Assembly (NCBI RefSeq): GCF_026672425.1
Contig: NZ_JAPPRC010000003.1
Span: 1,346,501-1,410,500, forward strand
From: Pannonibacter sp. SL95
GTDB lineage: Bacteria; Pseudomonadota; Alphaproteobacteria; Rhizobiales; Stappiaceae
Direction of reading: 5' to 3'
DNA length: 64,000 nt
Under the pieces are notes generated by a model. The model saw only the letters and a list, made by a program, of their open reading frames with translations, searched no databases and was not told where the DNA came from. Both the position numbers and the translations under genes were made by a program. Below, piece after piece: positions 42,646 to 43,247 of the stretch. Position 1 is the first letter of the stretch; each line of letters starts with the position of its first letter.

Positions 42646-42674
42646 AAAAAGCGGGCAGAGCTTGGCTCTGCCCG
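42646..42674 (-). terminator. terminator between usg and the NHLP gene
   Basis: CGGGCAGAG (42652-42660) and CTCTGCCCG (42666-42674) form a 9-bp stem. On the minus strand it is followed by CTTTTT (42646-42651), so it mainly terminates the NHLP transcript, and may also stop usg. Confidence 0.75.
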
Positions 42675-42745: not shown

Positions 42746-42776
42746 GGACTTCACCTTGCCGATGCAGGTGAAGTCC
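42746..42776 (-). other. second hairpin in the NHLP 3' region
   Basis: GGACTTCACCT (42746-42756) and AGGTGAAGTCC (42766-42776) form a perfect 11-bp stem with a 9-base loop, 7 bases after the NHLP stop. It has no T-tract; the true terminator lies ~70 bases further. It may stabilise the message or act as a site of regulation. Confidence 0.5.
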
Positions 42777-42783
42777 TGTTGTC

Positions 42784-43113
42784 TCACTTCTTGCAGCCCT
42801 GGCCCTTCGGATAAGGGGGGCCGTAGAGGATGAAAGCCGAGAAGCCGGTGCCGCCCGACGCGAAATCGAGCAGTTCATCCGGCAGCTCGTCCTGTGCGAT
42901 GGACCGCGGCAGCACGAGAACAGCCTCGCCCGGAGCTTCCTCGATCACGGTGATCTTGTAGGACGGGATCGGGTCAGTGCCGATCAGTTCCTTGATGGCC
43001 GCATGCGGGTTGGACTTCAGCAGGTCGCGGAAAGCGGCATCGGTCGAGGCCCGTTTGATCAGGTGCTTCTCGATGTGCTGGCGGGCCTGGATAAGCGGAT
43101 CGGTTTCCGACAT
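42784..43113 (-). CDS. NHLP-type RiPP precursor peptide (leader with Gly-Gly plus candidate core)
   Basis: A 109-residue protein resembling NHLP (nitrile-hydratase-alpha-like leader) precursors. Residues 1-86 show the leader pattern: STDAAFRDLLKSNPHAAIKE, IPSYKITVIEEAPGEAVLVL, then ELPDELLDFASGG, a two-glycine site at 87-88 preceded by an acidic helix. The C-terminal candidate core is residues 89-109, starting TGFSAFILYGPPYPKG and ending with QGCKK, with one Cys and several Pro. The start ATG at 43113 has a perfect AAGGAG 8 bases upstream. No lanthipeptide synthetase, YcaO, radical SAM or C39 peptidase gene is nearby, so the maturation partner is unknown; a diverged non-RiPP role for the nitrile-hydratase-like fold is an alternative. 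Confidence 0.7.
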   Translation of the reverse strand: MSETDPLIQARQHIEKHLIKRASTDAAFRDLLKSNPHAAIKELIGTDPIPSYKITVIEEAPGEAVLVLPRSIAQDELPDELLDFASGGTGFSAFILYGPPYPKGQGCKK

Positions 43114-43247
43114 GAGCGTACTCCTTGGCATTTCTCATGCAATCAGGTCTGCATCGTCATCGCCGTCGTGACGCTGCCGAAGCATCCTCGTGCCAAGATC
43201 TACGGGAAGATTTCAAATGCTGCGGGGTTGGACCCCAAATCTGCCAC

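Follow-up and report, generated by a model that had tools for sequence, protein, structure and literature searches.

The window analysed is a stretch of 64,000 nucleotides from Pannonibacter sp. SL95. On its minus strand, an ORF with the ATG at 43113 and the stop codon at 42784 (42784..43113) encodes a protein of 109 AA. A Gly-Gly motif divides this protein into an NHLP-type leader of 88 residues, which ends in DELPDELLDFASGG (42850..43113, minus strand) and was delimited by a TIGR03793 match and an alignment with nine paralogues, and the core TGFSAFILYGPPYPKGQGCKK (42787..42849, minus strand), which consists of a conserved front of 14 residues and a variable end with one Cys. Reading of the sequence gave a ribosome binding site, AAGGAGT (43120..43126, minus strand), 6 nt before the ATG, in agreement with the good site noted in the preliminary description. 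The gene had also been credited with its own terminator. An 11-bp hairpin directly after the stop codon is indeed read in the sequence (42746..42776, minus strand), but it has no T-run, and a terminator-like stem with a T-run (42652..42674, minus strand) is placed 110 nt past the precursor gene, between the latter and the convergent Usg gene; the count of such sites is at chance level (1 found versus 1.3 expected in shuffled sequences). The G+C content of the ORF at the three codon positions is 0.63/0.43/0.81.

The gene is flanked by Usg and a small-domain methyltransferase, with DUF2007 beyond, and no RiPP gene was found among these scanned neighbours. Orthologues with colinear flanks occupy the same place in P. 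carbonis, P. phragmitetus, P. indicus and genome G010, the proteins of the three named species being encoded identically in genomes G007, G009 and G008. The dN/dS of the leader ranges from 0.02 to 0.19 (10 species pairs from five species of the genus). Because of this ratio and of the orthologues at the same place in four further species, the gene is not a chance ORF; 42784-43113 is confirmed as real, and so are the NHLP-type leader, the Gly-Gly site and the tail of 21 residues that it encodes. In P. indicus, a second tandem precursor with the core TKFSTFLEYGKDGRPIGGSMCK is present at this place (L051:10406-10738).

The leader had been assigned to the NHLP type from the letters alone, and this assignment held. 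TIGR03793 (leader_NHLP, NCBIfam) matched the precursor with E=3.6e-13 over the full model (positions 2-77 of 77) and a score of 49.2 bits, i.e. 1.7 bits under the curated cut-off of 50.9; of four array paralogues scanned with the same model, two pass (53.3 and 52.6 bits) and two remain below (50.2 and 47.8 bits). The Pfam model NHase_alpha matched below its cut-off (0.0018), and a phmmer search of the PDB matched 9cjx, a ‘NHLP leader peptide family natural product’ (1.2e-6). The Gly-Gly site, residues 87-88 within FASGG (residues 84-88), is invariant across 10 aligned rows (the precursor and nine paralogues), so both the site and the 21-residue core are as originally proposed. As in the NHLP family, the cleavage motif closes the leader, the 88 leader residues contain no Cys and thus lack the metal-binding Cys of nitrile hydratase, and a transport cassette co-occurs, here searched with TIGR03796 as the one cassette model applied, over cut-off in 5/5 genomes of the genus.

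The gene was initially described as an orphan. This is correct within the window, but not for its genome (G000), in which nine other precursors, a pair of tandem GNATs and an exporter of the NHLP type are encoded. Seven tandem homologues with 61-67% identity to the precursor, which share similar leaders and carry different tails, form an array at C3:535958-538695, and two further homologues (47-48% identity) are encoded at C5:229657-230313. Two GNAT ORFs, 34% identical to each other, are located upstream of the array on the opposite strand. The structure model of GNATb (pLDDT 91.8) gave full-length matches to two-domain GNATs, and a tandem-GNAT fold is predicted for the enzymes by this model. 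The TIGR03796 exporter at C3:554611-556734 reached 954.9 bits (cut-off 853.3) and has a C39 domain; further ABC genes as well as HlyD-like and outer-membrane-like ORFs, both named by reading, are found in the same locus. With distances to the precursor gene of 854 kb for the GNATs, 851 kb for the array, 833 kb for the exporter and 275 kb for a YcaO gene, the GNATs, the exporter and the YcaO gene all lie outside the window, just as the preliminary description had seen neither a modifying enzyme nor a C39 exporter there. The window itself yields two generic ABC ATPase matches of about 99 and 104 bits, far below the TIGR03796 cut-off. A search of the whole genome for a C39-ABC gene, suggested at the outset, led to the exporter named above, and of the two options then put forward, an enzyme acting in trans or a new use of the leader fold, the former is the better one, as the likely maturation genes are located elsewhere in the genome.

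Some further features of these loci were recorded. A hybrid histidine kinase (Pfam, L009:4483-7685) is encoded near the GNAT pair, likewise in L053, L054 and L055, and in all four loci a response regulator was recognized by reading; thus, peptide maturation may be regulated. Between the ABC genes of the exporter, a 174-aa ORF reads like a cyclic-nucleotide-binding protein (L017:13080-13604), and similar-reading, mutually related ORFs are found by the exporters in L054, L061, L065 and L067. The NHLP precursors of the C5 pair (L010:9601-10431) are more distant and have long tails without Cys, similar ones being present in L073, L074 and L075, and a class II ribonucleotide reductase gene adjoins the pair in L010. 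The tail of a C5-type precursor, beginning with VNGQIVDSVTWANTK, recalls R-body RebB; no RebB match was obtained from Pfam.

Since the gene stands alone and its leader resembles those of the array, it might be a decaying, functionless stray copy of the latter. We consider this the least probable of all readings, because the leader is constrained (dN/dS 0.02-0.19) and the gene is found at the same place in all five species. In a leader tree (67 rows, 80 columns), the Pannonibacter orphan shares a fork with the one-GNAT group of SFSAF-type precursors from other genera and with some further rows, and the seven array rows of its own genome are placed separately, although this placement is weak given a support of 87/80. 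On the conserved place, the leader dN/dS and, weakly, the leader tree, a recent stray copy of the array was rejected.

Co-occurrence was determined in 87 genomes of the family by scoring the best candidates per genome (25 for the GNAT, 11 for the exporter). Precursors were present in 5/5 genomes of the genus, with 10-11 copies each, and in 1/82 other genomes (three weak matches); GNATs in 5/5 and 0/82; and exporters over cut-off in 5/5 and 3/82. As the genus is one lineage, 5/5 Pannonibacter genomes come close to a single event. In the order (five best GNAT candidates scored per genome), 7/397 genomes have the GNAT: three of the genus and four of another genus, which matches the Pleomorphomonas loci. 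A precursor adjoins the GNAT in 4/4 order genomes outside Pannonibacter. The class-wide survey matched 7/385 genomes including our own, the others weakly with 68 bits at best (up to 12 candidates per genome scored), and the phylum-wide survey matched 1/398, which is our own genome (up to 11 candidates per genome scored); accordingly, the group is patchy. Three records were obtained from a plasmid collection.

Linkage was inspected in 30 related precursor loci retrieved from genome_contigs. Locus finding used leader patterns including a DELPDELLD-like one, by which the conservation of that stretch is inflated and the core is unaffected. A GNAT of this kind was present in the fetched flanks (up to 10 kb) of 13/30 loci; the other 17 include five close ones from outside the genus (L063, L064, L068, L071 and L072). 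The GNAT pair of G008 and G009, adjoined by one or two precursors, is found on a different contig from a four-precursor array; action without linkage thus seems to be the norm in the genus, with the reservation that the contigs are drafts. In the three searched genomes with unlinked SFSAF-type precursors (Azospirillum RU38E and two of Novispirillum), no GNAT lies within 10 kb of these precursors and GNATs are encoded elsewhere. No precursor was detected within about 9 kb on each side of the best RU38E GNAT and of the GNAT of one Novispirillum, whereas two precursors adjoin that of the other. A radical-SAM-like ORF, named by reading, follows about 2 kb on from the best RU38E GNAT (L133:12480-13973). 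A second, diverged tandem-GNAT group is encoded beside other NHLP-like precursors, some of them weak matches, in Novispirillum, G008 and G009 (L129, L130, L147, L148 and L149).

The core front recurs almost unchanged, as [TVI]SFSAF[IV]LYGPPYP, in precursors of other genera, several of them beside one GNAT. In 47 between-genus pairs of GPPYP-type rows (55 pairs minus those within Pannonibacter, L064/L068 and L065/L067), 11-14 of the 14 residues of the core front are identical, compared to 38-57% of the leader, calculated without its last 11 residues. Within the genus the pattern is reversed, the leader being nearly fixed and the core end variable. A near-identical front is encoded beside a GNAT in Oleisolibacter, Rhizobium AQ_MP, Rhizobiales AFS098815 and an Azonexus MAG; Azonexus is betaproteobacterial, and the occurrence outside Alphaproteobacteria is represented by this one MAG (L066). 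In the preliminary description, a conserved leader with a varying tail was expected for a RiPP precursor, and a tail conserved as strongly as the leader would have spoken against it. The tails of the paralogues do vary, but between genera the core front exceeds the leader in conservation. Because of the linked GNATs, the exporter and the paralogues with variable tails, we take this to indicate a conserved product rather than to speak against a precursor. The same observation could fit a leader-fold protein with another role, the tail of which is not cut off. However, the Gly-Gly site, the C39 exporter in 5/5 genomes of the genus and the paralogues with quite different tails make such a protein very unlikely.

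The core ends differ with the number of GNATs. In two-GNAT systems, exactly one Cys was found in 48/50 distinct cores; not counted were L072 and L053 at 483, which have no clear Gly-Gly split (one Cys in each tail by eye), and the distant C5-type precursors L010, L073, L074 and L075, none of whose tails has a Cys. In one-GNAT systems, no Cys was found in 14/15 cores, ‘one-GNAT’ referring to one main-clade enzyme and, for Rhizobium, Shinella and Magnetospirillum, to less than the whole genome. Three further cores of Pleomorphomonas-like genomes, found later, have no Cys either. Diverged tandem GNATs also occur in 4/5 whole-searched genomes outside Pannonibacter, in a Shinella locus and in genomes of genus g541, and besides the pair in G008 and G009. 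Both two-GNAT exceptions are one shared Cys-free peptide, VGVSDNL-SLL-VLN, a tail common to P. phragmitetus and Rhizobium RU36D (L062:10364-10714 and L053:1292-1519). With a Cys background of 0.94% (128/13633 residues), exactly one Cys is expected by chance in about one core of six. The core counts are not independent, as many cores are orthologues; when 37 cores were grouped by similarity (near-duplicates left out and one tail trimmed at its start), every member had one Cys in 11/12 core families. A K or R follows within four residues for 31/35 Cys. Lys is absent in 4/50 and Cys in 2/50 two-GNAT cores. In most one-GNAT cores the end reads K-P-[AK]-[KR] and Cys is absent; the Cys of two-GNAT cores often stands in C-P-K/R or C-K-K. 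The core of our precursor combines the GPPYP front with a GCKK end, whereas in other genera the GPPYP front is followed by ends that are rich in Lys and free of Cys, mostly with KPK.

These patterns allow the tentative and rather doubtful idea that the duplicated tandem GNAT switched its acceptor from Lys to Cys and would thus produce S-acylated (or S-to-N shifted) lipopeptides, in which case our precursor would be the conserved peptide SFSAFILYGPPYP, rewritten accordingly and matured in trans. They also bear on the possibility of an unmodified, microcin-like peptide, which is handled by the C39 exporter alone while the GNATs serve the array only. Export and leader conservation alone would explain the leader and the Gly-Gly site, and no enzyme is linked to the precursor gene. 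Such a peptide is nevertheless unlikely, since nearly the same core front adjoins a GNAT in the four genomes outside the genus named above and since the core obeys the one-Cys rule of the array.

Regarding other modifying enzymes, the searches covered the three classes named in the preliminary description, with radical SAM represented by the SPASM type; these fared badly, and the likely class, GNAT, was not among them. LanC-like PF05147 had no match in the own genome, i.e. the LanM/LanC-like cyclase of class II lanthipeptides was not found, and lanthipeptide maturation was rejected. SPASM (TIGR04085), used to look for a radical SAM maturase as in proteusins, had no match at E≤0.001, and maturation by a radical SAM enzyme of the SPASM type, to which this model applies, was rejected as well. 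One YcaO is over cut-off (G000:C3:1664486), at the distance of 275 kb and thus without the linkage of the cyclodehydratase known from TOMM/LAP clusters, and YcaO maturation was rejected on account of this distance. A core changed by another enzyme, e.g. by this single YcaO forming an azoline at the lone Cys, is highly improbable for two more reasons: GNATs adjoin precursors of this kind in 13/30 loci, and 14/15 one-GNAT cores offer no Cys. A 104-aa ORF near the YcaO gene (L132) weakly resembles nitrile hydratase (Pfam, 0.08) and might encode a separate precursor.

Taken together, we assign a probability of roughly 0.7 to the reading that the gene is an NHLP-type RiPP precursor with its maturation genes elsewhere in the genome and a selidamide-like acylated product. 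The evidence for it is drawn from sequences and covers the leader, the Gly-Gly site, the paralogues, the modelled tandem-GNAT fold, the C39 exporter, the co-occurrence and the conserved core. One of the two tandem-GNAT acyltransferases encoded about 854 kb away, or both, would recognize the leader and put an acyl group, probably a fatty acyl group, on a side chain (Lys or Cys) in the basic C-terminal end of the core. The peptide would then be cleaved after Gly-Gly and exported by the C39-peptidase ABC exporter of the NHLP type, which is encoded about 833 kb off. Precursor and GNATs are connected by a shared leader, the core rule and the genome, without a direct link. As the core unites the widespread front with the one-Cys end of its own array, it is most probably a substrate of the distant GNATs in trans, for which this own-genome Cys mark is the best hint. 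The conservation of the front in several genera suggests one specific product, and we would guess at, e.g., a membrane-active or signalling lipopeptide.

GNAT-acylated peptides with NHLP or Nif11 leaders are already known, and there is precedent for scattered precursors that share a single enzyme. Phaeornamide, a selidamide like kamptornamide, has a precursor with an NHLP leader and a GNAT acyltransferase, and its transporter is said to cut the precursor at the Gly motif; the nostolysamide precursors have a Nif11 leader, and their GNAT NpuN is a tandem GNAT by model (PMC9505594, PMC13060382). The NHLP-type leader and the GNAT acyltransferases accompanying the precursors (two in G000, unlinked to our gene) resemble these systems, the likeness referring to enzyme class and not to the PhaN/NpuN sequences. 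In contrast to them, no LanC-like match was obtained here, the precursor gene is not linked to the GNATs, one duplication gave rise to both GNATs, the cores almost always have one Cys each, and the core front is conserved across genera. With the NHLP family (TIGR03793/03794/03796/03797), members of which were noted in species without TOMM or lanthionine enzymes (Haft et al. 2010, PMC2887384), it shares the leader, the GG motif, paralogues with variable cores and the TIGR03796 transporter family; in contrast, one core is conserved here instead of hypervariable, and ‘GNAT’ occurs 0 times in the main text of that paper. Prochlorosins, with genome-scattered precursor genes and one promiscuous enzyme (PMC10783134), are alike in the dispersed precursor genes and differ in their Nif11 leaders, the lanthionine synthetase and cores of low conservation.

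In the literature searched, which extends to few subscription papers and not to the original selidamide paper, neither a core shared across genera nor a one-Cys rule tied to GNAT duplication nor unlinked precursors in Pannonibacter were found described. The core strings were not found in the text searched. Judged by their titles and the beginnings of their abstracts, the papers naming Pannonibacter and RiPP do not deal with a peptide of this kind, and no S-acylated RiPP was apparent by title among the matches listed. According to a preprint title, a macrocyclic peptide is reportedly lipidated via the lipoprotein pathway, which is a different route.

The finding indicates a branch of NHLP peptides that is served by GNATs. 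Genome mining based on clusters would split this branch, as precursor genes need not be linked to those of their enzymes. The core front common to several bacterial families provides a small peptide that can be tested directly, and a sharp prediction as to which side chain a duplicated GNAT uses follows from the one-Cys rule.
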